Positions 7,272-20,472 of a stretch of 21,203 nucleotides of DNA are shown here, piece by piece. The first letter of the stretch is position 1; every line of letters starts with the position of its first letter. Origin of the DNA: a virus; IMG/VR virus record IMGVR_UViG_3300009168_000128, positions 1 through 21,203 of that record; one strand, 5' to 3'. Under the pieces are notes generated by a model that saw only the letters and a list, made by a program, of their open reading frames with translations, made no database searches and was not told where the DNA came from. Made by a program: the position numbers and the translations under genes.

Positions 7272-7831
7272 ATCTCAAAGAAATTTACCTCTCTAGTATT
7301 TTTCGCTTTACTATCTACAAGTTCTTCTTGTTCAATCTTCTTTTGTATTGATTCAAGGTTACTTATTATTGCATTTGTATCTGCTAATGCAGATGTTAAC
7401 TCTCTTGGTTTATATAAAGGTGCGCCAGTTCTACTATTTCGTAACTTCAATGTACCTTCTTCACTAAAGAATTCCTTTAATTGTTCTGCCGCAATCTTAG
7501 CTGAAATTAAATAAGAATAAGTTAATGAGGAGTTCCTCATATCCTCACGATATATTTCAACTAGTTGTTTAACTTTATCATCAGGTCTCCATTCTGGATT
7601 ATCTCTAAATATCCTTTCAGCTATCTTCCTGGGTTTAAGCTTCTCATTATATGCTCTAAAAGGATTGTTCATTCTCATACTTACTCTAAAGTAAACAAAT
7701 GCAAACTCCTTCAATGCTAACTCTTTCTTAGGTGATTCATCCCTATTCCAGATTTCAGCATATTCAGGTATCAATAGTATTTCTTTTGAGGGCCAAACTA
7801 TAAAGTCCTTAACCTCGAAAAATTCGTACAT
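7268..7831 (-). CDS. TerL-adjacent helical protein, unknown
   Basis: A 187-residue soluble protein (MYEFFEVKDFIVWPSKEI) that overlaps TerL by 4 bp and overlaps the preceding gene by 23 bp. It is rich in charged residues and predicted helix; residues ~150-175 (NAIISNLESIQKKIEQEELV) could form a short coiled coil. There is no signal peptide, membrane segment or metal site. Translational coupling to TerL suggests a packaging or head role, and a terminase small subunit is one possibility, since none is obvious elsewhere. No helix-turn-helix can be named with confidence, so the function is left open. Confidence 0.85.
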   Translation of the reverse strand: MYEFFEVKDFIVWPSKEILLIPEYAEIWNRDESPKKELALKEFAFVYFRVSMRMNNPFRAYNEKLKPRKIAERIFRDNPEWRPDDKVKQLVEIYREDMRNSSLTYSYLISAKIAAEQLKEFFSEEGTLKLRNSRTGAPLYKPRELTSALADTNAIISNLESIQKKIEQEELVDSKAKNTREVNFFEI

Positions 7832-8135
7832 CTTCTACTTTGATTTTAATCATCAATATATACTCTTTAATAGTCTCATTAACTACTGTTTTAAGTTTAG
7901 CATTTTGAGTAACATTCATATAGTCTCTACCTTGAGCAATTATTTGTTGTGGTATATCAGCACCAGTATAACTGATAGTTAATCTTTGTTCCTTTTCATC
8001 CCATTTTGCACCAGCACAACCACAAGATGTTTCAATTGATAATACCTTAATTTTACCAATGAAGTTAAATATACCAGTTACTTTTTGTTTAGGTCTTATA
8101 GTACCTAAATCATTCAACAACTTGTCCCAAGGCAT
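7809..8135 (-). CDS. DUF1573-like Ig-fold protein, cytoplasmic
   Basis: A 108-residue protein. Residues 10-60 follow the pattern of the Bacteroidota family DUF1573: a DLGTI opening, a beta strand, then LSIETSCGCAGAKW (33-45) with the family's Cys-Gly-Cys signature, then ISYTGADIPQQ. DUF1573 domains adopt an immunoglobulin-like beta sandwich, and cellular members are usually exported; this one has no signal peptide. In a head-gene operon the likely role is a virion surface or accessory domain. The ATG at 8135 (MPWDKLLNDL) is chosen over the upstream ATG at 8174, because the extra 13 residues have no family counterpart and would lengthen the overlap with the preceding gene from 26 to 65 bp. Confidence 0.8.
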   Translation of the reverse strand: MPWDKLLNDLGTIRPKQKVTGIFNFIGKIKVLSIETSCGCAGAKWDEKEQRLTISYTGADIPQQIIAQGRDYMNVTQNAKLKTVVNETIKEYILMIKIKVEDVRIFRG

Positions 8136-8427
8136 CTTTATATGTTTTAGTAGTCTTGTACCAATCCCATGCACCTTTAGTCATCATTCTAGGATAACAT
8201 CTTCCTCTACATGGTTTATCTGCAAATTGTAAATTAGTAGTTAAACAACCACATTCATCACATACTCCATTATCATAACAAGATTTGCGCATTACTCTAG
8301 TACGAAAAACATATTGCTCTTTAATATGTTCCTTTAAAAATCTTGCATATCCATGATAATATAACCAATGTCTTATGTTACCTTGAAAATATGCTTTAAT
8401 GTTCTTCCAGTTCTTCTTTGCTCTCAT
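8110..8427 (-). CDS. Small Cys-rich putative zinc-binding protein
   Basis: A 105-residue basic protein. The centre (about 50-80) carries C-Y-D-N-G-V-C-D-E-C-G-C followed by DKPCRGRCYP, giving six or more cysteines in CxxC-type spacing, consistent with one or two zinc sites. The N-terminal 45 residues are basic and helical, the C-terminus is short and polar. It overlaps the DUF1573-like gene by 26 bp and the upstream gene by 32 bp, so it is part of the packaging and head operon. Similar Cys-rich small proteins occur beside DUF1573-like genes in phages of Bacteroidota, from memory. Nucleic acid binding or a structural zinc knuckle are both possible; nothing visible decides. Confidence 0.8.
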   Translation of the reverse strand: MRAKKNWKNIKAYFQGNIRHWLYYHGYARFLKEHIKEQYVFRTRVMRKSCYDNGVCDECGCLTTNLQFADKPCRGRCYPRMMTKGAWDWYKTTKTYKDALGQVVE

Positions 8428-8722
8428 ACTTATTAATTATATGATTTAGCTTTAGCAATTCAGCTTCGTATATGTTTTTGTTTATCTTACCTGCTTTGTA
8501 CATATTCTCATACTTCATCTTAGCAGCTATTGCCATTCCTTTCTTAACTCCAAATGTACCAATATACTTTAGTCTAATAGTAGGCATATGAGGTAATGTC
8601 ATTGCCCTATTAACAAACAATAAAGCAGAGTAACATATCCTACCTACATCATTAACATCAAGGTCTGGATAATCATCTTTAATTGTTTCGTAGAATTTCT
8701 CAACTAAAGTTTTACAGTTCAT
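8396..8722 (-). CDS. Small basic protein, unknown
   Basis: A 108-residue protein (MNCKTLVEKFYETIKDDYPD) with helical ends and a central strand-turn segment, RLKYIGTFGVKKG (about 50-62). That segment faintly recalls the arm region of HU/IHF-type DNA-binding proteins, but the rest of that fold is not evident, so no family is claimed. It overlaps the upstream winged-helix gene by 4 bp (ATGA) and the downstream Cys-rich gene by 32 bp, so translation is probably coupled. No signal peptide or membrane segment. Confidence 0.8.
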   Translation of the reverse strand: MNCKTLVEKFYETIKDDYPDLDVNDVGRICYSALLFVNRAMTLPHMPTIRLKYIGTFGVKKGMAIAAKMKYENMYKAGKINKNIYEAELLKLNHIINKYESKEELEEH

Positions 8723-9066
8723 TTACATATCAGTTTAAAGTAGTATAACTGTTCAGAATCCTTTGGATGCAAGGTAGGATGAATCTGCAAATTATCATCA
8801 ACTGATATAATACATTTTTTGGAACCAAGACTCCTTATGAAATTACTCAATCCTGCATCACTTAGTTCTAAGGCTAATCTAACTTTCTTCCTGCTAAGAG
8901 TACAGAACATATTGTCAGCAAGTTCACCTTCCAATGACATAAATGCAGATAATACTTCTATCTCCCTATTAGTCAATCCTAATCTAGCAATTGAGTTAAC
9001 CAAATTTAAATGAACCTCATAGTATTCCCTTCTAGGCAATTCTAATGTTTTCTTATACGGTTTCAT
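8719..9066 (-). CDS. Winged-helix DNA-binding protein, first gene of the head operon
   Basis: A 115-residue protein. Residues ~30-105 read as a winged helix: LTNREIEVLSAF helix, then ALELSDAGLSNFIRSLGSKK as the helix-turn-helix pair, then a beta wing ending DNLQIHPTLHP. This layout resembles MarR/RepL-type DNA binders. As the first gene downstream of a good promoter candidate and immediately upstream of packaging genes it could regulate the head operon, or be the terminase small subunit, which is often a helix-turn-helix protein. The ATG at 9066 is the only sensible start. The leader carries a UUCG-capped hairpin (9085-9116). Confidence 0.85.
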   Translation of the reverse strand: MKPYKKTLELPRREYYEVHLNLVNSIARLGLTNREIEVLSAFMSLEGELADNMFCTLSRKKVRLALELSDAGLSNFIRSLGSKKCIISVDDNLQIHPTLHPKDSEQLYYFKLICK

Positions 9067-9084
9067 TATCTGGTATTAACCCAT

Positions 9085-9116
9085 AACTTAACCTGTTCCG
9101 AAGAACAGGAAAAGTT
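9085..9116 (-). promoter_or_regulatory. 5' leader hairpin with cUUCGg tetraloop
   Basis: In the minus-strand transcript CCTGTTC and GAACAGG (arms 9092-9098 and 9103-9109) form a 7-bp stem closed by C(UUCG)G, one of the most stable RNA tetraloops. Outside a symmetric 2x2 internal loop, AACTT/AAGTT add 5 more pairs. It ends about 18 bases before the ATG of the winged-helix gene and is not followed by a U tract, so it is more likely a leader stabiliser or translational control element than a terminator. Confidence 0.7.
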
Positions 9117-9180
9117 AGAGGCGTTGTGTCTTGTAAAATTATTCCCAATCAGTTGATATTCATTATTATGCTTTCGTCTT

Positions 9181-9217
9181 AATATTCAAATTTAAAGTTT
9201 TTCAGATTAAAATTAAA
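9181..9217 (-). promoter_or_regulatory. Bacteroidota-type promoter for the head operon
   Basis: On the minus strand TAAATTTG (9194-9187) matches the Bacteroidota -7 consensus TAnnTTTG exactly. TTTA at 9217-9214 sits 19 bp upstream, the right distance for the -33 box TTTG with one mismatch. The predicted start near 9181 gives a leader of roughly 115 bases containing the UUCG hairpin. It lies downstream of the terminator at 9263-9281, as expected for a new transcription unit. Confidence 0.55.
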
Positions 9218-9242
9218 TTTCTTTTATTTAAAATGAAAATTA

Positions 9243-9281
9243 TTTCAGTTTAAAACTGAAAACCCCAGTAGAGACTGGGGT
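9243..9281 (-). terminator. Rho-independent terminator plus adjacent palindrome
   Basis: ACCCCAGT and ACTGGGGT (9262-9269 and 9274-9281) form an 8-bp GC-rich stem with loop AGAG (plus strand). In the minus-strand direction it is followed by a U-rich tail TTTCAGTTTT. That tail runs into a second perfect inverted repeat, TTTCAGTTT-A-AAACTGAAA (9243-9261), which could be an operator or extend the terminator. It ends the operon 9373-10984 and separates it from the head operon. The stem is symmetric, so weak termination on the other strand is also possible. Confidence 0.75.
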
Positions 9282-9372
9282 AGTTTTGAAACTAAAATCT
9301 TTAAGCTTTAAACATGTAAAGGCTTAGAGTTATAGATCAACTAATTTCGACGAATAACAAATGTAATACTTT

Positions 9373-9633
9373 TTATGCTTCGTTAAACTGTTTTTTTAAT
9401 TCAGTTAACCTTTCATTGTATTGGTTGAGTAAGTAACCTTTAATCTTCCTAGTTAATTCATCACCATTCCTTAGTGTCGCAATCTTAATATTTTCATTTG
9501 TGCTATTGCCGATTGCTCTTGTTCTTTCAACTGTTACTTTAATAGCATCAGAGTTAAGATGTGCAATATTACCTTCTATCTCCCTGATTTCTTGACTAAT
9601 AGTTGTCAGTTCCTTTAGTTTTGCCTCCGTCAT
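9373..9633 (-). CDS. Small coiled-coil protein, unknown
   Basis: An 86-residue acidic-basic helical protein. Residues 1-30 and 60-84 have heptad-like spacing of Leu and Ile (KELTTISQEIREIEGNI; NERLTELKKQF), suggesting a coiled coil. No signal peptide, membrane segment or metal site. It is the last gene of its operon, overlaps the upstream gene by 38 bp in a different frame, and is followed by the terminator at 9243-9281. Confidence 0.75.
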   Translation of the reverse strand: MTEAKLKELTTISQEIREIEGNIAHLNSDAIKVTVERTRAIGNSTNENIKIATLRNGDELTRKIKGYLLNQYNERLTELKKQFNEA

Positions 9634-9940
9634 TGTCTTTATTATTTAAGTTAATTAATGCAACATTCTGTTTAATGTATTCAATCTCTCTTACAATGAA
9701 TTGATATAAATCTTCTCTAACTTTATCAGCATTAGGTGTTAATGCTACATACTTTCTTTTATCATCACTTGAACTCCACATTTCTAATCCCATCCAATTG
9801 ATATAGATAGTCTTACCAGTAGTTACAACTTCAAAGAGTAATTCAGTATCATCTAATGTAGAATCCATTATCTTTTTGTTTAAGGCTTCTACAAGCTTAT
9901 ATGCTTTACGTACATCTATAGTACCTATATATTCATTCAT
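9596..9940 (-). CDS. Small soluble protein, unknown
   Basis: A 114-residue protein (MNEYIGTIDVRKAYKLVEAL). The first 85 residues look like a compact alpha/beta domain with an aromatic patch (INWMGLEMW); the last 25 are polar and probably disordered (NLNNKDNDGGKTKG). It overlaps its upstream neighbour by 4 bp and its downstream neighbour by 38 bp, consistent with coupled translation. Stop is TAG. No recognisable family. Confidence 0.8.
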   Translation of the reverse strand: MNEYIGTIDVRKAYKLVEALNKKIMDSTLDDTELLFEVVTTGKTIYINWMGLEMWSSSDDKRKYVALTPNADKVREDLYQFIVREIEYIKQNVALINLNNKDNDGGKTKGTDNY

Positions 9941-10407
9941 CTTCTACTTATTAATTTATTTACACTTGTATAAAGTTCTAATAGAGTTTTACTATCAGTT
10001 TCATCTATCTTCTTCCAATCCCATTCCCAAGGTTCTTTGTTACCTATTGCAAATCTATTGAAACTACCATAACCTGCACACATCTGGAAAGTCATTTCAT
10101 TGTTAGGTCTTAGACTTTTAATGAGGTCTATGATTGCTGGTCTATCTTCTTCTTTAGGTTCAGTATTAAAATCATTAATCAGATTAACAATATACTTCTT
10201 TAGTTCTTCAAACCTAATTTGACTAAAGTTCTTTTCGTAGAATACCTGTAATAGAACTGGTTCATCTGAATTAGTTCTAACAGGTACACATAATACATGA
10301 TAGTCATGAAATCTTTTAGAATAAATATCTTCCATTATTAAAAGATTATCTAAGTCACCTCTTAACACCTCTAACTCTAACTTAATTACTATTATTGGTT
10401 TTGGCAT
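9937..10407 (-). CDS. Soluble protein, unknown
   Basis: A 156-residue protein (MPKPIIVIKLELEVLRGDLD), with alternating strands in the first half, a helix around 75-90 (RFEELKKYIVNLINDF) and an aromatic segment KEPWEWDWKKID near 124-135. No export signal or metal site. It overlaps the next gene by 4 bp (ATGA) and follows the previous one by 3 bp, so it is translated within the same operon. Function not recognised. Confidence 0.8.
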   Translation of the reverse strand: MPKPIIVIKLELEVLRGDLDNLLIMEDIYSKRFHDYHVLCVPVRTNSDEPVLLQVFYEKNFSQIRFEELKKYIVNLINDFNTEPKEEDRPAIIDLIKSLRPNNEMTFQMCAGYGSFNRFAIGNKEPWEWDWKKIDETDSKTLLELYTSVNKLISRR

Positions 10408-10410
10408 AAA

Positions 10411-10707
10411 TTATAGTTTACACATTCTAAGTAAATAACTAAAGAATCCATATGATGAATCATCAACTCTAAAACCCTTATCTCTATTACGATTCATTTC
10501 AACTTTAAACATTTCATATGACTTACGTAAATCTTCACCATTAAACAAGGCTTGATTACGAGTAGCATATTCTTCTCTTGTCTTATACTTAGTCTTACCC
10601 CAAAAGTATTTATTGAATGTATCAACTACTATATCATATAAGATTAATTCAGCTTCTATATTTTCAGGCAACTTATATGCTGGCCTATTTCTTGGACTAC
10701 TTATCAT
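10411..10707 (-). CDS. Small basic helical protein, unknown
   Basis: A 98-residue protein (MISSPRNRPAYKLPENIEAE) that is mostly helical and basic towards the C-terminus (VEMNRNRDKGFRV). It overlaps the preceding gene by 11 bp. No membrane segment, metal site or known motif is visible. Reading frame quality is supported by tight packing and by consistent AT-rich codon use like its neighbours. Confidence 0.75.
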   Translation of the reverse strand: MISSPRNRPAYKLPENIEAELILYDIVVDTFNKYFWGKTKYKTREEYATRNQALFNGEDLRKSYEMFKVEMNRNRDKGFRVDDSSYGFFSYLLRMCKL

Positions 10708-10984
10708 TGCTAAAAGTTGATGTGAATATGATAATTGAAGTTACAGCTAATACTAATGCACTAATTAGTATAATTGTTATTAAAGTTCTTATAGTAGCTT
10801 CATAATAAGACATGGTATCATCCTTCCACTTATGATAATCAGTAAACCTTTTCCAAAGAATGTCTCTATTCTTGTACTTATTATAGCAACATACTGGACA
10901 ATCATATAACTTTGGTGCGCTAGAGTTACATTCAGGACAAAAGCCGAACAATAACCTCCATTTTCCGAGGATTTTAGGGTACAT
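10697..10984 (-). CDS. Zinc-ribbon small membrane protein
   Basis: A 95-residue protein with two parts. Residues 16-34 hold a zinc ribbon, CPEC-x7-...-CPVC, preceded by the hydrophobic FGF. Residues ~66-88 (TLITIILISALVLAVTSIII) form one transmembrane segment near the C-terminus, leaving a short polar tail, so the ribbon would face the cytoplasm if the protein is tail-anchored. The ribbon resembles the one at 13915-14115, which suggests paralogs. It opens the operon 9373-10984, just after a terminator at 11091-11139; no clear -7 box was found upstream. Confidence 0.8.
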   Translation of the reverse strand: MYPKILGKWRLLFGFCPECNSSAPKLYDCPVCCYNKYKNRDILWKRFTDYHKWKDDTMSYYEATIRTLITIILISALVLAVTSIIIFTSTFSNDK

Positions 10985-11090
10985 AATGTTGTATAATATA
11001 TATGGTGTATATAGATTCTAATAAACAGGGCAAAAACTATAGAAAATCTAAAGAAGCAGGGAATTTGGTAGGCAGTTTTAGAAAATATTT

Positions 11091-11139
11091 AAAAAAAACC
11101 CGTTTTTTTGAAAGAGTTCAGAAAATTGGGTTCTTTTTT
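11091..11139 (-). terminator. Probable Rho-independent terminator
   Basis: Read on the minus strand, AAAAAAGAACCC pairs with GGGTTTTTTTT across a ~26-base loop, with one bulged G, and the right arm ends in a long U run. A shorter alternative is the A-run/CGGG/T-run hairpin inside the right half (11091-11109). It lies between the operon ending at 11307 and the one starting at 10984 and would stop read-through between them. Confidence 0.5.
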
Positions 11140-11156
11140 GTGGCAAAATCAAGAGA

Positions 11157-11192
11157 TCAGCAACTCTTCTTGCCTTTCTTTTTACCTTTCAT
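11157..11192 (-). CDS. Possible 11-residue Lys-rich peptide
   Basis: ATG at 11192 opens a tiny frame reading MKGKKKGKKSC and ending in TGA. Seven of 11 residues are Lys or Gly-flanked Lys, and it is preceded by an A/C-rich stretch (CAAACAACACATTACC) like Bacteroidota leaders, and followed by the terminator at 11091-11139. A mini-transcript is therefore possible. The length is too short to rule out chance, so this is a low-confidence entry. Confidence 0.2.
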   Translation of the reverse strand: MKGKKKGKKSC

Positions 11193-11306
11193 GGTAATGT
11201 GTTGTTTGAGTGAATGAAGATATAACATTTAGTAACAAGTTGTGTGAGTTTGTGAAAATTTATTATAATAAGCTACCGCACCCTTGGATAAAATTTGTAT
11301 AATAGA

Positions 11307-12032
11307 TTACCCAAATGATTTACGAGCATCAGTTTCATTATCAAATAATGCACAGCCCCATATCTTCCAATTACTTCTTCTGTTCTTAAAGTGTTCATCT
11401 GATGAAAATGAACTTCTTGTATAAGGTTCTATCTTACTATCAGGATTTTTCCTAGCATACTCTCTAACTGCATCATCAAATGTTTGTCCTACACCTTTTC
11501 CTATCATTTGTGCATCAGAAGATTGACCTGTAGCTTGAAAACCTTCCATCCATATCTCATATACATTAGCAGGAATTATATTATTTTCATTATAATCTAT
11601 TTCTTTGTTTCTTTCAACAACTTTAACATTCATATCATCACTAAATGGAACTTCGTGTTTATTTCTTCCATACCATCTTTCTCTCATATTAATAGCATCA
11701 TTAAATATTTTTAAACATTCAATTAAAACACCACGTAATATAAAATCAGGAGTATTACTATCTTTCTCCATTGAGTGTCTATTGATAAGAGTCTCTAATT
11801 CTTGTTCAAATGAAGGTGGGTCTATTATTCCATCTTCTATTGGTGCAGCATTCTCAAACATATTATCTGATAACTTAACAACCTTCTGTAACATATCATC
11901 AGGTGATACTTGTTCACCATTAACTGTTTGACTATCTATTGTTAATTCTTTAGAACCAGTAAGTATAACTAATGCTGCAATTAAGTTTCTACCCTCATGT
12001 GTTTGTGTATTAATCTCTGATAAATTTTTCAT
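11307..12032 (-). CDS. Phage protein with two small conserved domains, unknown function
   Basis: A 241-residue soluble protein. Residues ~85-130 contain TPDFILRGVLIECLKIF followed by NMRERWYG, a pattern I recognise from many hypothetical phage proteins. Residues ~160-241 contain an IWMEGFQATG strand, TFDDAVREYARKNP helix and an end motif IWGCALFDNETDARKSFG, a second widespread small phage domain. Together they look like a fusion of two accessory domains. No signal peptide, membrane segment or catalytic triad is visible. It is the last gene of the operon 11307-14874 and lies 56 bp after the proline-rich gene, with a strong hairpin in the gap. Confidence 0.85.
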   Translation of the reverse strand: MKNLSEINTQTHEGRNLIAALVILTGSKELTIDSQTVNGEQVSPDDMLQKVVKLSDNMFENAAPIEDGIIDPPSFEQELETLINRHSMEKDSNTPDFILRGVLIECLKIFNDAINMRERWYGRNKHEVPFSDDMNVKVVERNKEIDYNENNIIPANVYEIWMEGFQATGQSSDAQMIGKGVGQTFDDAVREYARKNPDSKIEPYTRSSFSSDEHFKNRRSNWKIWGCALFDNETDARKSFG

Positions 12033-12048
12033 GTTGTGTTTTGTTTAG

Positions 12049-12080
12049 AATAACTAGTGGTTATCATACCACTAGTTATT
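12049..12080. terminator. Strong intergenic inverted repeat
   Basis: AATAACTAGTGGT (12049-12061) and ACCACTAGTTATT (12068-12080) are perfectly complementary 13-base arms around a 6-base loop. It starts 8 bases after the stop of the proline-rich gene on the minus strand and ends 17 bases before the next ATG. The minus-strand right side is TTCTAAAC, so there is no good U tract; it may attenuate transcription or serve as an RNA-processing or stability element rather than a full terminator. Confidence 0.6.
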
Positions 12081-12088
12081 AGCAATCA

Positions 12089-12592
12089 TCATTTAGGTGC
12101 TGGATTTGGATTCTCTGGTAAATCTCCACCGGGAGTAAATGCTATCCATGACCATCCTATACCGGGAACATATACAAATACCCACCAACCACCTTCACTT
12201 GGAGGTAAGTTAATAGGATGTTCAGGTTTAGGTGCATTAGGGTCTGGTGGTGTAGTTTGATCTGGTGGTAAGTCACCGGGAAGTGTTTGGTCAGGGTGTG
12301 GAGCATTGGGGTCTACTGGTGGTGGTTCAGTAGGAGGTAATGTATTATCAGGATAGCTACCACCTGGGGGTACAACGATAGGGAAGAAAGGAAATAGAGG
12401 TAAATCCTGATTAGGTCTTTCTGCACTTCCACTAGGAGGTTCTCCGGGCCATGCTCCACCGGGAGGTACTACTATAGGCACAAAAGGAAAGAGTGGTAAG
12501 TCATGATCTGGTCTAGGTATATTTCCACCACCACCTATAGGTGGTTTAGTAGGTGGTTGCAATGGAATGATTATAGCTTTAAAAGGTTCCAT
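12089..12592 (-). CDS. Proline-rich repeat protein
   Basis: A 167-residue protein rich in Pro and Gly. Residues 27-49 and 59-81 are two near-identical copies of a unit containing DLPLFPF and PIVVPPGG, 32 residues apart. Residues 85-130 are a looser Pro/Asp spacer with PDQTLPG and PDQTTPP. The C-terminus ends in an aromatic beta segment, GWWVFVYVPGIGWSWIAF (135-152). Pro-rich proteins with PDQ-LPG units and an aromatic end are known near structural genes of several phages; a decoration or fibre-linker role is a guess. No signal peptide is seen. The ATG at 12592 overlaps the upstream 37-residue membrane protein gene by 22 bp. Confidence 0.8.
   Translation of the reverse strand: MEPFKAIIIPLQPPTKPPIGGGGNIPRPDHDLPLFPFVPIVVPPGGAWPGEPPSGSAERPNQDLPLFPFFPIVVPPGGSYPDNTLPPTEPPPVDPNAPHPDQTLPGDLPPDQTTPPDPNAPKPEHPINLPPSEGGWWVFVYVPGIGWSWIAFTPGGDLPENPNPAPK
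12350..12514 (-). repeat. Two-copy internal repeat in the proline-rich gene
   Basis: Positions 12446-12514 and 12350-12418 encode matching 23-residue units, spaced 96 bp start to start. The DNA copies share long matches around CCACC-GGGGGTAC type sequence, indicating an in-gene tandem duplication rather than chance similarity of proline codons. Confidence 0.7.
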
Positions 12593-12684
12593 GTAATTAG
12601 TTTATAAAGAATAAGTAATATAGTTACTAACGTTATTATAATTTGGATTTCTCTAAATCTAGGTGGTGGTCTTATTGGCATCAT
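12571..12684 (-). CDS. 37-residue single-pass membrane protein
   Basis: ATG at 12684 (a second ATG follows at 12681) opens a 37-codon frame ending in TAA at 12571. It reads MMPIRPPPRFREIQ, then a hydrophobic stretch IIITLVTILLILYKLI (15-30), then a short tail. A basic N-terminal head followed by one transmembrane segment is typical of small phage membrane proteins, including holin- and spanin-like ones, but no family is recognised. It fills the only gap between the Acb2-like and proline-rich genes and overlaps the latter by 22 bp. The tight fit and the clear membrane segment support it as a real gene. Confidence 0.65.
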   Translation of the reverse strand: MMPIRPPPRFREIQIIITLVTILLILYKLITWNLLKL

Positions 12685-12699
12685 TTTATTTGTTACTTA

Positions 12700-12963
12700 T
12701 TAAAGATTAGAAGTTGCAGCTTTAACAGCCCACATTGCACCTTCTTCATAAGCTGTTTGTGCTAATGACCATAAGCGAATAGCTTCACCTTTTTGTACAT
12801 CAGTTAAACTGGTATTCTCCTTAACTGTTTTAATACCATCTTCACAAAAATCAATTAACATTGCTACATCATTTTTAATAGAAGCTACATCTTGTCTTTC
12901 AAGATTATTAAAATTACGTCTTACTCTAGCTTCTCCTTTTGTCATTGAGACTTCTGTTTCCAT
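12700..12963 (-). CDS. Acb2-like protein (anti-CBASS cyclic nucleotide sponge family)
   Basis: An 87-residue, all-helical protein. Residues 14-40 (RVRRNFNNLERQDVASIKND) and the end LAQTAYEEGAMWAVKAATSN (67-86) match, from memory, the Acb2/DUF7681 family pattern, where the helix ends in an (E)A-MWAVKA motif. Acb2 proteins are small oligomers that bind cyclic di- and trinucleotides and so stop CBASS and related signalling; the activity is known for the family, not shown here. The ATG at 12963 is used; Met7 is an alternative. It lies in an operon with other accessory genes, 18 bp after the beta-rich protein. Confidence in the family is moderate because only a pattern was compared. Confidence 0.7.
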   Translation of the reverse strand: METEVSMTKGEARVRRNFNNLERQDVASIKNDVAMLIDFCEDGIKTVKENTSLTDVQKGEAIRLWSLAQTAYEEGAMWAVKAATSNL

Positions 12964-12981
12964 TGTGTTTTGTTTTATTTA

Positions 12982-13527
12982 TTAAAGATACTTTAACCAT
13001 ATTCTTATATCATGTGGTGCAACGTTATTACCACCAAAGTAAGGATATAACTTATATCCTATTGCTTTATCAGTAGTTGCTGCTCTAGGCATTCCTATTA
13101 ATATACTTAATTCTTTAATATAGAAAAGATAGTCAACATTATTTACTACAATACCACAGGTATAAACTGTATCTATTTCTATAATTGATAATTCTTTCTC
13201 TGACCATTCACCATCATTATATACATATGCAAATAACCTAAGTTCATTATCTGAATATCTCCAACCAAATCTTGCACTAAATTGCTGGTGATGTGAATTG
13301 TTATCTGAAAAGCCAGTTAGTTTATTAATATCATGTTGATCTTGTGATGGGAGAGTATATATAGCAGAACTATCAAAACGTACTTTAAATTTATACTCAT
13401 TAGTTTCAACTCTAATTAGTCTTTCAGAGTAATGTCTACCTTCTGGAATAACATATTCTTTAAAGTCTTTATTCTTATCCTTATTTTTTTTACAACGTAC
13501 ATTAATTGTTATCCTTTTATTTCTCAT
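12982..13527 (-). CDS. Beta-rich conserved Bacteroidota protein, unknown function
   Basis: A 181-residue protein that is predicted mostly beta strand. It begins MRNKRITINVRCKKNKDKNK (very basic), then has INKLTGFSD, SARFGWRYSDNELRLFAYVY and DGEWSEKEL, and ends with YKLYPYFGGNNVAPHDIRIW. I recognise this end pattern, LYPYFGG-x3-APHDI, from hypothetical proteins of Bacteroides and their phages; it resembles a lectin-like or jelly-roll beta sandwich. No signal peptide is present, so a virion surface role is plausible but not shown. It is 18 bp upstream of the Acb2-like gene. Confidence 0.8.
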   Translation of the reverse strand: MRNKRITINVRCKKNKDKNKDFKEYVIPEGRHYSERLIRVETNEYKFKVRFDSSAIYTLPSQDQHDINKLTGFSDNNSHHQQFSARFGWRYSDNELRLFAYVYNDGEWSEKELSIIEIDTVYTCGIVVNNVDYLFYIKELSILIGMPRAATTDKAIGYKLYPYFGGNNVAPHDIRIWLKYL

Positions 13528-13543
13528 TCTGCATATCTATTTA

Positions 13544-13798
13544 TTATTTTTTATCTAAGGATGCGGTGAGTTCTGGATACTCTGCTTTCACATAGTTATC
13601 AAGTTGTTCCTTCCAATAGTTAATAGCTTGTTCATTAGCATTGTGATGGTATACTATACTCATTGATTTTAAATCAATAGTTATACTTGGCTTTGCCCTA
13701 TTATACACTCTTTCAATTTGAGAGATAAGGTACTTAATAATTTCATCATTATGAAATCTTTGTACTATTCTAGTATAATTTATTTGAGGTTGTAACAT
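13544..13798 (-). CDS. Small basic protein, unknown (revised start)
   Basis: An 84-residue protein (MLQPQINYTRIVQRFHNDEI) with a helical first half and an acidic-basic C-terminal helix (KEQLDNYVKAEYPELTASLD). The frame stays open 32 codons further upstream to 13894, but that part lies inside the 43-residue gene 13800-13931. The ATG at 13798 begins one base after that gene's stop (TAA-A-ATG), which fits coupled translation, so the shorter version is used. No family is recognised. Confidence 0.75.
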   Translation of the reverse strand: MLQPQINYTRIVQRFHNDEIIKYLISQIERVYNRAKPSITIDLKSMSIVYHHNANEQAINYWKEQLDNYVKAEYPELTASLDKK

Positions 13799-13799
13799 T

Positions 13800-13931
13800 T
13801 TACTTCTTTTTCTTCCTTTTAGGTAGAGTCTTTTGATTAGTGACTGCTGACCAATGTTTGCAATCCACTTTACCTTTAAATCCTTTAGTTGCATAACAGG
13901 CTTTTTGCTGTGCTTTACTTTTGAATGGCAT
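13800..13931 (-). CDS. 43-residue MPFKSKAQQ-type phage protein
   Basis: ATG at 13931 gives MPFKSKAQQKACYATKGFKG and ends with a Lys/Arg-rich tail (PKRKKKK) at TAA 13800. Short proteins beginning MPFKSKAQQ with an ACYATKGF-like motif recur in many phages, as far as I recall; they have no assigned function. The coding frame overlaps the stop of the zinc-ribbon gene by 17 bp and ends one base before the next ATG, filling the space fully. This recognition is what makes the 84-residue start at 13798 preferable for the next gene. Confidence 0.75.
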   Translation of the reverse strand: MPFKSKAQQKACYATKGFKGKVDCKHWSAVTNQKTLPKRKKKK

Positions 13932-14115
13932 TTAATACCTCCTTATATTTAGTCCACCATTGATTAAGTAATACATGATTAGGATAATATTGATAATTAT
14001 CACAAACATTGCAATACCATTTATCTATATCTTTTGATTGGCATTTAGGACATACATGAAATATCTGATACCTAATATAACCACGAATTAGTTTGAGTTT
14101 AGATTTGAATGGCAT
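13915..14115 (-). CDS. Small zinc-ribbon protein
   Basis: A 66-residue protein beginning MPFKSKLKLIRGYIRYQIFH. A zinc ribbon follows: HVCPKCQSKDIDKWYCNVCD, residues ~20-39, with CPKC and CNVC pairs spaced 11 apart. The C-terminal part is helical and aromatic (NQWWTKYKEVLNAI). It looks related to the ribbon protein at 10697-10984 but lacks its membrane segment. Its first six residues equal those of the following gene (13800-13931). Function unknown; zinc ribbons of this size usually bind nucleic acid or another protein. Confidence 0.8.
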   Translation of the reverse strand: MPFKSKLKLIRGYIRYQIFHVCPKCQSKDIDKWYCNVCDNYQYYPNHVLLNQWWTKYKEVLNAIQK

Positions 14116-14120
14116 GGCGT

Positions 14121-14369
14121 TTACATTATATTAAATCCATTAATATCTTGTTCAGTTAATTTTCTTAATACTGCAAATGATTTGATACAACCATAAGGTT
14201 GATAACCCATTGCATCTTTTGACCTTATCATTGGTGGCATACCGGGAACTAGTGCATGAACATAATAACTTACTTCATAGAACCCTTCGTTATATTCTAC
14301 TAGAAGTAAATCATCTTCATTTGGACTTGCTTCTTCTGTATCAAAGAATACTAATTTCTTAGTTTTCAT
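14121..14369 (-). CDS. Small protein, unknown
   Basis: An 82-residue soluble protein (MKTKKLVFFDTEEASPNEDD). Alternating short strands and turns (LLLVEYNEGFYEVSYYVHAL) suggest a small beta-rich fold; the C-terminal helix is polar. No signal peptide or metal site. It overlaps the RepL-like gene by 11 bp and lies 5 bp upstream of the zinc-ribbon gene, so it belongs to the same operon. Confidence 0.8.
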   Translation of the reverse strand: MKTKKLVFFDTEEASPNEDDLLLVEYNEGFYEVSYYVHALVPGMPPMIRSKDAMGYQPYGCIKSFAVLRKLTEQDINGFNIM

Positions 14370-14874
14370 TTGTTATCAAATTTATTTCTTTAACAGGTTG
14401 TTTATCTGTAATTAAATCAGGTCTTATTCTATTAGTTCTAAATAACATAGCTGCTGTTGTACTTAGTACTGCGAAGTATTCACCATAACTAATATAATAT
14501 GGATTTACAATATAGATATTGGTAGTTTCAGTTTTAATAAGTACCTTCATTTCTATAAATCCTTTGATTGCTTTACAGTAATTTCCATTGTTCTTTATTT
14601 CAGGTTTACATTCCCATAATACATTATACATTTTCAGTTCTCTTTGTATTATATTAACTAGATTCCATTGAGCAGGTGTACACATTGACCCTAATTCTTT
14701 ATTGATTATAATAAAGTCTCTATCTAATCTTATATTCTTTAAGTTTGCTACAGCACCTCTTTTAAATGATGTACCATTTATATCATTTATAATAACATTA
14801 CCTTCTATAGTTGGAGTATTAAATAACATATCCATAATGACTACATATGACGGAGATATTTTTCTCTGAATCAT
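14359..14874 (-). CDS. RepL-like winged-helix DNA-binding protein
   Basis: A 171-residue protein. The stretch 55-130 looks like a RepL-type winged helix: an N-terminal strand FIIINKELG, helices around MCTPAQWNLVNIIQREL, the recognition part CKAIKGFIEMKVL, then the wing with TNIYIVNPYYISYGE, ending in the VNP motif that RepL proteins carry. RepL proteins bind DNA, in plasmids as replication initiators; phage versions may regulate transcription. It is the first gene of the minus-strand accessory operon and its start is 20-60 bases from two palindromic operator-like sites, which makes autoregulation plausible. Which role it plays cannot be told from the sequence. Confidence 0.8.
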   Translation of the reverse strand: MIQRKISPSYVVIMDMLFNTPTIEGNVIINDINGTSFKRGAVANLKNIRLDRDFIIINKELGSMCTPAQWNLVNIIQRELKMYNVLWECKPEIKNNGNYCKAIKGFIEMKVLIKTETTNIYIVNPYYISYGEYFAVLSTTAAMLFRTNRIRPDLITDKQPVKEINLITNEN

Positions 14875-14896
14875 TCATAAAGATAAACTATATTTG
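14865..14896 (+). promoter_or_regulatory. Putative promoter toward the plus-strand genes
   Basis: TATATTTG at 14889-14896 matches the Bacteroidota -7 consensus. TCTG at 14865-14868 lies 20 bp upstream and matches the -33 box TTTG in three of four bases; it falls within the first codons of the RepL-like gene. The first operator-like palindrome overlaps the end of the -7 box and would cover the start site, a repressing arrangement. The resulting leader to 15222 would be about 320 bases, so an additional promoter nearer the gene is possible. Confidence 0.4.
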
Positions 14897-14941
14897 GCTA
14901 ATCTAGCCATTTTTTTTAGAGAAATTGGCTAATTTAGCCAA
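14895..14941. promoter_or_regulatory. Pair of operator-like palindromes
   Basis: TGGCTA-ATC-TAGCCA (14895-14909) and TTGGCTA-ATT-TAGCCAA (14925-14941) share the half-site TGGCTA with a 3-base centre. The centres are 31 bp apart, close to three helical turns, so two protein dimers would sit on the same DNA face and could cooperate. The first overlaps a promoter candidate (TATATTTG) and ends in a T run that also makes a weak hairpin; the second is 51 bases from the RepL-like start. Candidate binder: the neighbouring RepL-like winged-helix protein. Confidence 0.65.
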
Positions 14942-15035
14942 GAAAATGGTATATAACTAATTAGCAATCAGCAAGATGTAAAAGTAGTCTCTAATAGAGA
15001 TAAGACCCTATACATTAATCAGAAAAGTAATAACA

Positions 15036-15068
15036 TGTAAAATTGTCAAGAGCCTGTTAAAATGTCAA
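15036..15068. repeat. Imperfect direct repeat in the control region
   Basis: TGTAAAATTGTCAA (15036-15049) and TGTTAAAATGTCAA (15055-15068) differ by a shifted T and start 19 bases apart. This spacing is close to two helical turns and could be a second regulator-binding site. It also may be an iteron-like part of an origin. Only two copies are seen. Confidence 0.5.
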
Positions 15069-15221
15069 CATTGCAAGATAGGTAAGAATAATGTATAAAC
15101 ATAATAGTCATACAAAATTTTTGTAAAAAATTTTTAAAGATAAATGGAAACGTAATCCTCCCTACAACTAACCCTCACTAATTTTCGGGGAGATAGGTAT
15201 CCCCCCACTAAAATCACCTTT

Positions 15222-15503
15222 ATGAATATTTCCGAGATTAAGAAAGCTTTAGGCGTAGAGACATTACCTTTCGAAGAAGGTCTTGCTAATCAGGATGGTA
15301 CTCCATCATTGTATGGTACTATTTGGGATAACACTACACGTAGGCAAGTTAGTATCCTCAAGACTGATTTGACCAGTGTAATCGCTAATCCAACACGTTC
15401 TGATTTGTACATGCATCATAGCCAGCCAGTATCCACTGGTTCAGGCAAGATGTTTGACAACTATCGTATTGGTATCATGGCTAATGTCATTGGTACGTTG
15501 TAG
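15222..15503 (+). CDS. First gene of the plus-strand half, unknown
   Basis: A 93-residue soluble protein (MNISEIKKALGVETLPFEEG) with an N-terminal helix and a C-terminal region ending FDNYRIGIMANVIGTL. Codon use is richer in GC and in CGT arginine codons than in the genes around it. It has its own strong terminator starting 3 bases after the TAG stop, so it is probably transcribed as a single-gene message, the pattern of a strongly expressed early gene. No family is recognised. No Shine-Dalgarno is seen; a GGGGA/TCCCC hairpin lies 18 bases before the ATG. Confidence 0.85.
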   Translation: MNISEIKKALGVETLPFEEGLANQDGTPSLYGTIWDNTTRRQVSILKTDLTSVIANPTRSDLYMHHSQPVSTGSGKMFDNYRIGIMANVIGTL

Positions 15504-15505
15504 GT

Positions 15506-15532
15506 AAGGGGGCGTAAGCCCCTTTATTTTTC
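15506..15532 (+). terminator. Strong Rho-independent terminator
   Basis: AAGGGGGC and GCCCC-TT form an 8-bp stem with one G-U pair and the loop GTAA, followed by TATTTTT. It begins 3 bases after the TAG stop of the gene 15222-15503, which also confirms that this TAG is a real stop. It would make that gene monocistronic. Confidence 0.9.
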
Positions 15533-15778
15533 ATACACAATGTTAGAACTAGCAGAAATCAAGAGATATTCATTAAAGTTAATAAGGTAGGGTGTTAGTA
15601 CAGGATATATACTATGAGAGAGAGTACAGTTTGCATAATTGCGTCAGACATATCTTGTTATAACATAAACTTATAGCTACTTGTTACTAAGTAACCTTCC
15701 TAATTTCATCAACCTTTTCACTATCACCAATTTTCTCATAATCAGGGTTTATAATAATAGCCCAAAATACAATCCAAA

Positions 15779-16126
15779 ATGAAAAACTTTGCAATCCTTT
15801 TAAGTATCATTGCTTTCTTAGTTATTATGATGAGCAGTTGTTCAGAATCTCAACCTACAATTAAAGCAGCAGGTAGTGTTGACAGTATCATTATTGCACG
15901 TAATGAAATACTCAATGAGAAAGTACTTGCAAAAGTACATTCTTGGCCTATTCGTGTTGATGAAGAATTTATTTCCGAATTGAAATGGGTTCATCCAGCA
16001 TTTGTTGCTGGTGACATAGTTACATTAGGTGGAGTTCATTCTACTTATATGATTGATTCAATAATTGTCCTTGATACAGAAGGACATTATACTGGTGATC
16101 TAAACATACTAGATGATGACAATTAA
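15779..16126 (+). CDS. Small lipoprotein
   Basis: A 115-residue protein with a lipoprotein signal: MKNFAILLSIIAFLVIMMSS followed by Cys21, then polar residues SESQPTIKA. The mature part has about 95 residues, is beta-rich (YMIDSIIVLDTEGHYTGDL) and has no known motif. It would be anchored in the outer or inner membrane of a Bacteroidota host. Surface lipoproteins of phages often block re-infection or shed the receptor, so a superinfection-exclusion role is conceivable. A terminator-like hairpin surrounds its stop codon (16108-16139). The 275 bases before it contain no other gene. Confidence 0.85.
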   Translation: MKNFAILLSIIAFLVIMMSSCSESQPTIKAAGSVDSIIIARNEILNEKVLAKVHSWPIRVDEEFISELKWVHPAFVAGDIVTLGGVHSTYMIDSIIVLDTEGHYTGDLNILDDDN

Positions 16127-16139
16127 GTCATCATCTAGT
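16108..16139 (+). terminator. Hairpin enclosing the stop codon
   Basis: ACTAGATGATGAC (16108-16120) and GTCATCATCTAGT (16127-16139) are perfect 13-base arms with loop AATTAA; the TAA stop of the lipoprotein gene is inside the loop. The following bases TTTAAAT make a modest U tract. The left arm also matches CATCTAGT at 16199-16206, so an alternative pairing is possible. Confidence 0.7.
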
Positions 16140-16351
16140 TTAAATAACAAACGTGGTGTTGATGCAAAAAGACCACATTAAACAATTCATTAAACTTGCA
16201 TCTAGTGTACTGGTTAAGCATTCCAGATAATACACGATTTAACATGCTTAGATAATAGTAAAAGGCTATATTGGGGACGATATAGTGACAAGCAATAAGG
16301 CCGCTTTGAAGTGCCTATTCATTTTCTTTTAAATCCTTAAAATAAAATAAC
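16140..16351 (+). other. Intergenic stretch with RNA-structure motifs
   Basis: About 210 bases between the lipoprotein and the next gene. It contains a likely hairpin: GTGTA-CTGG (16205-16213) with CCAG (16223-16226), ATAA bulge and TACAC (16231-16235). Also CTATAT-TGGGGACG-ATATAG (16266-16285) and TAAGCAT/ATGCTTA (16215-16221, 16244-16250). A 22-codon frame (16162-16230, MQKDHIKQFIKLASSVLVKH) crosses the same bases and is a competing explanation. Words GTGTACTG, CCAGA, AATACAC and AAGGCTATA recur in the next spacer (16709-16802). Confidence 0.45.
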
Positions 16352-16366
16352 GTGGAAAAATCACAA

Positions 16367-16705
16367 ATGTTAGCGATACTGGAATTTGGTAATATATATG
16401 AATTTAAATTCTTAACAAGTGAAGAGTGGTGGAGTATAGTAACTAAATCAGCAACTGTAATAACTACAAGGTTATTACCTTATGGTATAGTAAATACTGC
16501 AATCATTGATAAAACAGAATATAATCAAGTATCATATTACAAAGGCCATCCTTCTGAATCAGAGCAATGTGTATATTGTTCTAATCGTCATTATACAATA
16601 GAAGATACAGAATCTTTTATTAAGATAATGACACAAGGTATAGCACCAGTATGGCCTGAACCAGAAGAAATGCAACACCTACTTTGCGAAGATACTGATT
16701 ATTAA
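16367..16705 (+). CDS. Small protein, unknown
   Basis: A 112-residue protein (MLAILEFGNIYEFKFLTSEE). A GTG 15 bases upstream (16352) is in frame, but the ATG at 16367 follows TCACAA, similar to the ATTCACA leader of other genes in this region, so it is preferred. The middle has CVYCSNRHY (about 68-76), possibly a lone metal pair, and the C-terminus is acidic (EPEEMQHLLCEDTDY). No family is recognised. A long stem (16709-16797) starts just after its stop. Confidence 0.8.
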   Translation: MLAILEFGNIYEFKFLTSEEWWSIVTKSATVITTRLLPYGIVNTAIIDKTEYNQVSYYKGHPSESEQCVYCSNRHYTIEDTESFIKIMTQGIAPVWPEPEEMQHLLCEDTDY

Positions 16706-16708
16706 GAT

Positions 16709-16802
16709 ATTGGTCAATATGCTCATTTGTACGTGTACTGATGGAAGGCTATAACAATCTATCCAGAGGAGGAAATACACCTAGAGTATTGACCAATTTT
16801 TT
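16709..16802 (+). ncRNA. Possible structured RNA closed by an 11-bp stem
   Basis: ATTGGTCAATA (16709-16719) and TATTGACCAAT (16787-16797) are perfect 11-base arms around 67 bases, followed by a T run (16798-16802), the layout of an RNA with a terminator-like closing stem. The interior carries CTC/GAG (16722-16724, 16784-16786), GTGTA/TACAC (16733-16737, 16776-16780) and TGGA/TCCA (16742-16745, 16762-16765) pairs nested in order, and an AGGAGGAAA loop. It sits directly behind the stop of the gene 16367-16705. It may instead be a long-looped terminator. Confidence 0.5.
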
Positions 16803-16805
16803 ACC

Positions 16806-16822
16806 TTTTAAAACTATTCACA
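16806..16822 (+). promoter_or_regulatory. Shared start-proximal leader word (TTTTAAA..TATTCACA)
   Basis: TTTTAAAACTATTCACA lies directly before the ATG at 16823. The same TATTCACA word is directly or nearly directly before the starts at 17463 (17446-17460, with the TTTTAAA part), 18437 (18429-18436) and 19551 (19544-19551). Three of the four also have a second ATTCAC word 14-15 bases upstream (17440, 18415, 19530). The repetition at starts suggests a translation or transcription signal used by this region. Confidence 0.55.
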
Positions 16823-17281
16823 ATGAAAATTAAATTATGTTGGTTCAACCAACATTGGAATGTTTATCTTTATTCAGATGATAGTCTCTGGATAGGGAAT
16901 AGAACAGAGAAAATTATTAGGGATGAAACACCGGGTCATGAAGGTGAGTATAGATTGCGTGAATATAAACATGCTGAAATACCTATATTTACGTTTGGAT
17001 TCTTTGCAGATGATGCAAAACAGAGGCCGGGGCATGGTGGTGAATGGTCAAGTAATTCACCAGTCATTAATAGAGTGTTTGGTACAACTCTTAGAGAAAT
17101 TGCTGTAGACCAGATGAGTGTAGCTGTTCCTATTGAATGGCTAAAAGAATTGTTGGGTGATAATGTTGAATGGGGAGCATCAATGTGGTCACCAAATTAT
17201 CTTGAAATTAAATCTGCAAAAGATTATCCCAATCCAGAATATGACCAATGGATTGAAATAATTCCGAAGCTTGTCAGCTAA
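16823..17281 (+). CDS. Protein of unknown function
   Basis: A 152-residue protein (MKIKLCWFNQHWNVYLYSDD) with many Trp and aromatic residues and an acidic middle. Short strand segments and the stretch VPIEWLKELLGDNVEWG suggest a compact alpha/beta domain. There is no signal peptide or membrane segment. The ATG at 16823 follows the TATTCACA leader word. It is followed by the 15-bp stem at 17297-17415. I do not recognise the family. Confidence 0.85.
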   Translation: MKIKLCWFNQHWNVYLYSDDSLWIGNRTEKIIRDETPGHEGEYRLREYKHAEIPIFTFGFFADDAKQRPGHGGEWSSNSPVINRVFGTTLREIAVDQMSVAVPIEWLKELLGDNVEWGASMWSPNYLEIKSAKDYPNPEYDQWIEIIPKLVS

Positions 17282-17296
17282 GGAACAACACCCAAA

Positions 17297-17415
17297 GTAA
17301 TCAGAGATACATACAAGGTATACATTGTAGCCTACGTGCATAAGTTCATAGTTATTACGCATACCTTCACCAAGAGGAAGATGTAATGATGTTCACTTAT
17401 TGTATCTCTGATTAC
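17297..17415 (+). ncRNA. Possible structured RNA closed by a 15-bp stem
   Basis: GTAATCAGAGATACA (17297-17311) and TGTATCTCTGATTAC (17401-17415) are perfect 15-base arms around 89 bases. The interior has an AAGGTAT/ATACCTT pair (17315-17321, 17361-17367) and CCAAGAGGAAGATG, close to the CCAGAGGAGGAAAT of the previous spacer. No long T run follows, so a plain terminator is less likely than an RNA with its own fold or a processing substrate. It lies 16 bases after the stop of the gene 16823-17281. Confidence 0.5.
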
Positions 17416-17462
17416 AGAGGGTAAATTAAAATGTCATTTATTCACTTTTAAATATTCACAAA

Positions 17463-17954
17463 TTGAAACAGTTTAATCAGGTTATTACAGTTGAAGTGTC
17501 AGTAGATTCTATTGCACAAAAGTTATTGGAATCAATGAATGTTGATTTCAAACATGCAGAATTAGTAACAGAAGCAGTTATTGGTTCAGCATTGCATTCC
17601 GGGAAATTAAGTTACATTTACAATGCCTTAAATGGCTTTACTAATGACATTAACTTCAAAGTTGGTGACAAAGTAAGAACTACAAAGAAAGCATATATGT
17701 ACAAAACTCCAAGTTCCAAAGAAAGGAGCAGTTCTGAATATGCTACAATGGATAATTGCGTAGTATTGGAGATAGATGAATACCGGGATGCTAAATTGTT
17801 GCTGGAATATGACCATTACAATCGTGATGAAACCATTGTTCGTAAACAGGAATGGGTAAGTCATACTGAATGTTCACAAATTGAACCATCAATTGATTTG
17901 CGTAAATCAAATGGTGCAGAGATAATGGGGCCACAGTACACCATGGAAGATTAA
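17463..17954 (+). CDS. Protein with SH3-like segment, unknown (TTG start)
   Basis: A 163-residue protein. The only start with a good leader is TTG at 17463, two bases after TATTCACA; the first in-frame ATG would cost 25 residues. Residues ~68-125 look like a small SH3-like barrel (FKVGDKVRTTKKAYMYK; CVVLEIDEYRDAKLLLEYDH; QEWVSHTECSQIE), a type common in small phage proteins. The first 60 residues are helical. No export signal. It is followed by a strong hairpin (17963-18005). Confidence 0.8.
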   Translation: MKQFNQVITVEVSVDSIAQKLLESMNVDFKHAELVTEAVIGSALHSGKLSYIYNALNGFTNDINFKVGDKVRTTKKAYMYKTPSSKERSSSEYATMDNCVVLEIDEYRDAKLLLEYDHYNRDETIVRKQEWVSHTECSQIEPSIDLRKSNGAEIMGPQYTMED

Positions 17955-17962
17955 TCAAACAC

Positions 17963-18005
17963 TTATCGCATCCTATTATATTCAAAACATAATAGGATGC
18001 GGTAA
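17963..18005 (+). terminator. Strong hairpin after the SH3-like gene
   Basis: TTATCGCATCCTATTAT (17963-17979) pairs with ATAATAGGATGCGGTAA (17989-18005), 17 base pairs including one U-G, with a 9-base loop. It starts 8 bases after the TAA stop and is followed by TTTCTATTT, a moderate U tract. It probably terminates the unit or protects its 3' end. Confidence 0.75.
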
Positions 18006-18038
18006 TTTCTATTTACAAATCAAAACAAAAAAAGAAGT

Positions 18039-18332
18039 ATGAAACCTTCACAGTTAAAGTTGAAATTGTTTTTCATTGGTATGCTGATTGTTGCTATGTT
18101 TGCAAACAGCAAATGTTTCAGTCAGAATGCCAAATTGGACAGCAAAGGTAATTATGTGCAGATCAAAGCACCAATTGATACAACTGGTACACCAACTGGA
18201 AAGACATTCACCACAACAAAGGGTGATGTGTATCCTGTCCTGATTTCTAAATCGGGTAGCCTGTTTGTAGTAAGAACATCAGCGAAAGGTACACGCTATA
18301 AGATGTATCTTAAAACAGAACCAAAGATATAG
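18039..18332 (+). CDS. Secreted small protein
   Basis: A 97-residue protein with a cleavable signal peptide: basic start MKPSQLKLK, hydrophobic LFFIGMLIVAMFANS (10-24), then a polar region KCFSQNAKLDSKG. The mature part contains TGKTFTTTKGDVYPVLISKS and ends FVVRTSAKGTRYKMYLKT, a beta-rich pattern I recall from small secreted phage proteins of Bacteroidota. It would act in the periplasm or outside the cell. Its leader is A-rich (CAAAACAAAAAAAGAAGT) rather than ATTCACA. A terminator follows at 18360-18388. Confidence 0.8.
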   Translation: MKPSQLKLKLFFIGMLIVAMFANSKCFSQNAKLDSKGNYVQIKAPIDTTGTPTGKTFTTTKGDVYPVLISKSGSLFVVRTSAKGTRYKMYLKTEPKI

Positions 18333-18359
18333 GTTTTGAGTTTTTGGGTTTTCGATGAT

Positions 18360-18388
18360 AGAGTAGTAACACAGAAATGTGTTACTCT
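18360..18388 (+). terminator. Terminator hairpin with GAAA loop
   Basis: TAACACA and TGTGTTA pair around a GAAA tetraloop; outside a 3-base bulge, AGAG/CTCT add four pairs. TCTTTTGTTATTT follows. It starts 28 bases after the TAG stop of the secreted protein gene. Confidence 0.8.
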
Positions 18389-18436
18389 CTTTTGTTATTT
18401 CAAATATGAAATCAATTCACCAATAATATATTCACA

Positions 18437-18664
18437 ATGAGCATGCCTATTAATGTTATAATGCGTATTAATAATATCGCATATAAACAGTCTATTCCTA
18501 CTGAATTAAAAGTAGGAGATTTAGTTTTTGATACTAAAGATAATAGCTATGGATATGTAGATATGATACACGATGAAAAACGTGTAGCTGTAAGGGATGG
18601 CCATGTTACTGAATTAGGAGTATCTATTGAAAGACTTAGATTATTAACACCAATAAATAGTTAG
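18437..18664 (+). CDS. Small SH3/KOW-like protein
   Basis: A 75-residue protein (MSMPINVIMRINNIAYKQSI). Residues 23-70 look like a KOW/SH3 barrel: LKVGDLVFDTKDNSYGYV, then IHDEKRVAVRDGHVTE, then RLRLL. Such domains bind RNA or protein, or are structural in small phage proteins. It has the TATTCACA leader and a second ATTCACC word 15 bases upstream. The next gene follows after 2 bases, with no hairpin between, so the two are one unit. Confidence 0.8.
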   Translation: MSMPINVIMRINNIAYKQSIPTELKVGDLVFDTKDNSYGYVDMIHDEKRVAVRDGHVTELGVSIERLRLLTPINS

Positions 18665-20234: not shown

Positions 20235-20472
20235 AAGAAGCGAATTAACAGGCAAGTTAAATACAAGAGACTTGCCTGTTACTTTTAGACAATTGATAAT
20301 GTTTTATTGTAATAAACATCATCTGGAGATAATATTCCCATGCTTATCACCAGAAGATAAAGAGTTTCTTAGAACAGGAATAACAAAAGAAGAATGGGAA
20401 CTAATCCGAAAAAAAAATCCAATCTATGAAGATGGCAATCACAGGTCACAGACCTCACAAATTGGGGAATGA
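20221..20472 (+). CDS. Small phage protein, unknown (revised start)
   Basis: An 83-residue protein (MLITRRSELTGKLNTRDLPV). ELTGK-x-NT-x-DLPVT and LSPEDKEFLRTGITKEEWE match short phage proteins I recall, all of unknown role. The frame also stays open 27 codons upstream to 20140, but those codons lie inside the preceding gene in another frame and lack the family pattern; the ATG at 20221 is used. It overlaps its upstream neighbour by 14 bp and the SLOG gene by 47 bp. Confidence 0.8.
   Translation: MLITRRSELTGKLNTRDLPVTFRQLIMFYCNKHHLEIIFPCLSPEDKEFLRTGITKEEWELIRKKNPIYEDGNHRSQTSQIGE

Follow-up and report, generated by a model that had tools for sequence, protein, structure and literature searches.

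Those members of the Acb2/Tad1 family that have been studied soak up the cyclic-nucleotide alarm signals of bacteria. Acb2 is built from a short N-terminal helix and two long helices (PMC12043709). In the T4 protein (Vs.4), K23 and R79 contact cGAMP and the hexamer is held together by L29, A66 and A77 (PMC10097602); A73 is also among the hexamer-interface positions, Y8 and F82 stack on the cGAMP bases (PMC10097602, PMC12657230), and the substitution T68M weakens binding (PMC12657230). In each Tad1 protomer two helices follow an antiparallel beta-sheet at the N-terminus, and the pocket for gcADPR is formed by conserved loops as well as by the helices (PMC12043709).

The window, by which we mean the whole 21,203-nucleotide stretch of viral DNA analysed, encodes one protein of this family:

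12700 to 12963, minus strand: Acb2-like gene (open reading frame, PF24729 and phrog_717 matches)
12712 to 12900, minus strand: Acb2/Tad1 hairpin domain, residues 22-84 (hmmscan, six-frame family search of the window)

ORF calling returned the gene that the original prediction had described: 87 codons on the minus strand with an ATG start and a C-terminal end of ...AYEEGAMWAVKAATSNL. A second methionine at residue 7 (12945) aligns with the usual start of the relatives (MTKGE/MSLGE...), and for this reason the true protein may be 81 rather than 87 residues long, beginning at Met7.

Family membership follows from profile searches. As the original prediction had proposed in assigning the protein to DUF7681/Acb2, it matched the Pfam family PF24729 (Acb2_Tad1_hairpin) above the gathering cut-off (hmmscan, 34.4 bits where 27 bits are required, E=2.6e-8), and it also matched phrog_717 (E 2.1e-5), the source of the T4 Vs.4/Acb2 homologues collected by Jenson et al. 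(PMC10097602). T4 Acb2 itself, used as a positive control, scores 70 bits with PF24729. The six-frame search found a single PF24729 match in the window, and the same family matched none of 14 control genomes. NCBIfam and PADLOC searches with the window protein gave no match, and a Pfam match to PID_2 was set aside for falling under its own cut-off.

We then looked at relatives among viral contigs. A first scan returned an identical protein in two contigs and a diverged protein in four, and a second scan, querying with the alignment of these relatives, returned at least 443 confirmed relatives. Across an alignment set of 58 sequences, the window protein included, PF24729 was matched by all 58 and PHROG 717 by 57. 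Seven residues are invariant throughout the set (K30, R63, T70, E73, M77, W78 and K81) and a further twelve are near-fixed (G10, R13, V14, F18, N19, P20, V26, L36, A68, A76, A79 and T84); where the family has FNPS, the window protein unusually has FNNL. The number of relatives and these invariant residues, together with the above-threshold PF24729 score and the empty control genomes, place the reading frame beyond chance. Proteins with the pattern GExRVRxxFNPS...MWAVKAAT, from environmental phages, among them Flavobacterium elemo phages and F. columnare phages (FCOV, FCV), form one sub-family with the window protein; most of those aligned are 42-60% identical to it, all exceed the PF24729 cut-off wherever the cut-off is displayed, and they occur in unrelated phages and in gene contexts unlike that of the window.

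Structure prediction is consistent with the family assignment. AlphaFold2 modelled the window protein with a mean pLDDT of 92.8 and a pTM of 0.80 as one short helix (9-13) and two long antiparallel helices (24-49 and 55-83, with pLDDT about 97-98 across most of both), with no beta strand and only ~23 residues ahead of the hairpin. At 87 residues, under about 95, and with no beta-domain, the protein fits the size and layout of Acb2 of the T4/PaMx33 type. The original prediction had named the absence of a significant profile match, or a fold unlike Acb2, as outcomes that would count against it; what we found was a 34.4-bit match and a short-long-long helical model. Its proposed comparison with Acb2 structures gave a more mixed picture: the helical architecture is alike and T4 Acb2 (7uq2) ranked first when the model was searched against the PDB with Foldseek (probability 0.90, TM 0.60), but the E-value of 0.79 is not significant, and the model of a canonical shorter relative of 72 residues did not retrieve Acb2. 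Among viral models, the top two Foldseek matches were proteins named Acb2/Tad1 hairpin (E 0.0014 and 0.036). We gave the Foldseek results little weight because short hairpins are poorly resolved by fold search. Membership in the Acb2/Tad1 hairpin family therefore rests on the sequence profile, and the fold evidence, weak by itself, agrees with it.

A PDB search with the single window sequence gave no match. With a profile built from the 58 sequences, the best natural proteins in the PDB were T4 Vs.4 (E 0.004), 'Acb2 homolog 43' (E 0.005) and Tad1 (E 0.02), with all three matches covering the second helix, and a profile-profile comparison with eight T4-type Acb2 proteins gave E 3e-5 and a probability of 73% over the C-terminal helix. 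By E-value the profile placed Acb2 below a designed TIM barrel (7mcd), but this match adds up four weak repeats of a single designed helix, each non-significant by itself, and we rejected it as an artefact. We also rejected matches of an elemo-phage relative to NEQ131, in which the stretch of chain starting the match looks like an expression tag (SMTGGQQMGR).

To compare individual residues we aligned T4-type and window-type proteins with MAFFT, counting positions over the 58 sequences. Two features of the window protein were mapped in this way:

12874 to 12876, minus strand: Lys30, counterpart of T4 Acb2 K23 (alignment, 58 of 58 sequences)
12715 to 12777, minus strand: second-helix signature, residues 63-83 (RLWSLAQTAYEEGAMWAVKAA), with the counterparts of T4 A66, T68, A73, A77 and R79

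The window protein and T4 Acb2 (PDB 7UQ2) are about 15% identical, and they share the Pfam family and the arrangement of one short and two long helices. The counterparts of T4 K23, L29, A66, T68, M75, W76 and A77 are identical in the window protein, and that of R79 is conservatively Lys. Both cGAMP-contacting positions are fixed in the alignment set (K23 to K30 and R79 to K81, each 58/58), as is T68 (T70, 58/58). At the hexamer-interface positions L29, A66, A73 and A77 the window protein has L36, A68, G75 and A79; the first, second and fourth of these are kept in 57/58 sequences each, and the third is Ala in 48/58.

The aromatic pair that stacks on the bases, in contrast, is absent from the window protein as judged by sequence alignment, not superposed coordinates. 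In the N-terminal part, where the mapping to T4 Acb2 is ungapped from K30 but of low identity, Y8 corresponds to R15 (Arg or Gly in all sequences but one), and at the other end F82 corresponds to T84 (Thr in 57/58). We accordingly rejected the label of T4 Acb2 orthologue. H11, a polar cGAMP contact in T4, aligns with the almost invariant F18, which could serve as a substitute for the missing base-stacking aromatic. Unlike T4 Acb2, the family of the window protein has its own N-terminal motif, GExRVRxxFNPS (FNNL at its end in the window protein). An aromatic residue does occur at the position of F82 elsewhere in the wider family, as Tyr in the one divergent relative and as Phe in an F. columnare phage protein. 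The divergent relative is located as follows:

L006, 5851 to 6066: divergent hairpin relative, directly after a terminase-like ORF

Its motif, SRERALALTAYEEGAMWATKSVY, appears to lie between the pattern of Tad1-type proteins and that of the window sub-family. The window protein resembles Tad1 (e.g. PDB 7UAV, 8KBB) in the C-terminal hairpin pattern R..A.ALT..EEA.MW and the Pfam hairpin domain, and differs from it in lacking the N-terminal beta-sheet region.

We next considered the phage that carries the gene and the organisation of its genome, for which two further features of the window are needed:

5175 to 7271, minus strand: terminase large subunit (TerL), downstream of the Acb2-like gene (phrog_6681 E 4e-155, tblastn)
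12982 to 14874, minus strand: small uncharacterised genes upstream of the Acb2-like gene (ORFs with short gaps)

The portal protein matches phrog_6547 (E 1e-165), and tblastn found Fpv-type Flavobacterium phages first (46-52%; TerL about 51%, portal about 46%) and crAss-type gut phages after them. Because of these tblastn matches we read phrog_6681 and phrog_6547 as crAss-like, and the original assignment of the Acb2-like gene to a crAss-like phage holds. No PF24729 match occurs anywhere in the genome of Fpv1, which by TerL is the cultured phage nearest to this one. The leftward genes begin at 14874 and continue by way of small ORFs to TerL (7271-5175), the portal and beyond, and rightward genes lie right of 15222; in a related contig (G001) the leftward block runs on into more large ORFs and an AAA/UvrD-type helicase is encoded in the rightward block. 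The original prediction had spoken of a late-strand accessory operon. The gene does lie in the strand block of TerL, which runs away from the replication-side block, and 'late' is a reading from strand and position only; a promoter scan around the operon found sites no more numerous than in shuffled sequence, so expression timing is unreadable from it. The Acb2-like ORF starts 18 nt past the stop of the nearest upstream gene (12982-13527), and the upstream genes, which gave no confident family among those scanned in Pfam and PHROG, are probably the start of its own transcription unit. Just before the leftward block, at 14895-14941, stand two adjoining stem-loops, TTGGCTAA...TTAGCCAA and TGGCTA...TAGCCA, with a T run on the plus strand after the second. 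About 100 nt after the Acb2-like gene comes a proline-rich ORF (12089-12592, minus strand) encoding a 167-residue protein with internal repeats (PPGGAWPG / PPGGSYPD ...) and no family match in Pfam or PHROG. At 20426-20914 on the plus strand is a SLOG-domain (YspA/DprA-like) protein (PF06908, E 1.2e-15), whose PADLOC match to ShosA (1.6e-7) probably reflects a shared DprA-like domain. SLOG domains bind nucleotide and nucleotide-sugar signals in some defence systems.

Two other contigs (L001 and L002) are 97-99% identical to the window in nucleotide sequence from 9651 to 18539 (in the second, as far as 17086), but only 85% identical over 7245-9066. Within the former stretch the Acb2-like gene shows no nucleotide difference across the three contigs and its frame is intact. 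The shift in identity places the gene in an accessory block whose recent history differs from that of the TerL-side genes, a block probably exchanged between related crAss-like phages. The segment between the two stretches (9066-9651) is divergent, and one of its ORFs is only 40% identical in protein. Around 77 relatives we found 105 PHROG families and no fixed neighbour; TerL types are the commonest neighbour class, still a minority (phrog_2 in 9/77). Such varied neighbours are the pattern of a movable accessory gene.

Taken together, we consider it probable, from sequence comparison, that the gene encodes an Acb2-type cyclic-nucleotide sponge directed against CBASS-type signalling. Its product would be a small all-helical sponge, copies of which probably pack by their hairpins into an Acb2-like hexamer, with pockets that would hold negatively charged cyclic nucleotides. 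The captured molecules would be those made on infection by host CD-NTases (CBASS) or by a related signalling system, and the sequestered signal would be kept from its effector, so that the infected cell would be spared abortive death. The gene thus appears to be a new member of an already known kind of counter-defence protein, with its sponge function predicted.

The main target of a sponge with the same fold could also be, as for Tad1, a nucleotide signal of ADP-ribose type (Thoeris) or of some other kind, rather than a CBASS cyclic oligonucleotide. The Pfam family joins Acb2 and Tad1, Tad1 is among the PDB matches of the profile, and the aromatics that stack on cGAMP are missing; Tad1, however, has its beta-sheet and pocket loops (PMC12043709), and the window protein has only ~23 residues before its hairpin and no strand in its model; we regard this target as unlikely. 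A further suggestion, that the family member no longer binds signals, either through decay or because it was selected to dodge Panoptes-type sensing of sponges, draws on the missing counterparts of Y8 and F82, on FNNL in place of the family's FNPS, and on the loss-of-function acb2 alleles carried by T4-like phages (PMC12657218, PMC12657230). Against it, the frame is intact with zero nucleotide changes in three contigs, the invariant K30, R63, T70, E73, M77, W78 and K81 are all present, and Thr at the F82 position is common to the whole sub-family and is therefore not private decay. Loss of binding accordingly seems to us a slim prospect.

We give similarly little credence to a late structural or packaging helper, such as a small terminase- or head-associated protein, that would share the hairpin shape only. 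The gene does sit in the TerL-strand block, TerL-type PHROGs are the commonest among the neighbours of its relatives, and a terminase-like ORF immediately precedes the divergent L006 relative. Yet the neighbouring families also include Erf and Sak4-like annealing proteins, HNH nucleases and a RusA-like resolvase, the gene adjoins Erf and a 5'-3' exonuclease in the Flavobacterium elemo phages, and Fpv1, the closest cultured relative, does without a PF24729 match, so the protein is not an essential virion part.

Returning to the Acb2-type sponge, the replacement of the two stacking aromatics (Y8 by R15, F82 by T84) suggests that its ligand preference differs from the 3'3'-cGAMP of T4 Acb2 and is for another dinucleotide, or for a trinucleotide at the trimer interface. 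A bolder proposal, possible though doubtful, is that the GExRVRxxFNPS...MWAVKAAT sub-family, abundant in environmental phages, is a class of hairpin sponges apart, which would bind a cyclic-nucleotide ligand of its own in a distinct pocket, with the conserved R13, F18, N19 and T84 standing in for Y8 and F82.

These findings place a predicted Acb2-type counter-defence gene in a crAss-like phage, whose host is most likely a member of the Bacteroidota. STING-type CBASS sensing c-di-GMP is known from bacteria (PMC8748872), and a recent review does not count c-di-GMP among the ligands of Acb2 (PMC12043709). For a common sub-family of predicted sponges that lacks the known stacking pair, it is a testable question which signal is bound, and relatives in cultured Flavobacterium phages make a ligand test practical. 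Homologues occur in elemo phages and in F. columnare phages (FCOV, FCV), all labelled 'hypothetical protein' among the matches listed, and one of each scores 42.9 bits (elemo) and 51.4 bits (F. columnare) with PF24729. Two of these uncharacterised Acb2/Tad1-hairpin genes are located as follows:

L097, 3995 to 4222: Acb2/Tad1-hairpin gene of cultured Flavobacterium phage FCOV-F1
L008, 3977 to 4258: Acb2/Tad1-hairpin gene of cultured Flavobacterium phage elemoE

Phe stands at the position of T4 F82 in the FCOV-F1 protein, which together with the elemoE protein would make a useful pair for ligand comparison.
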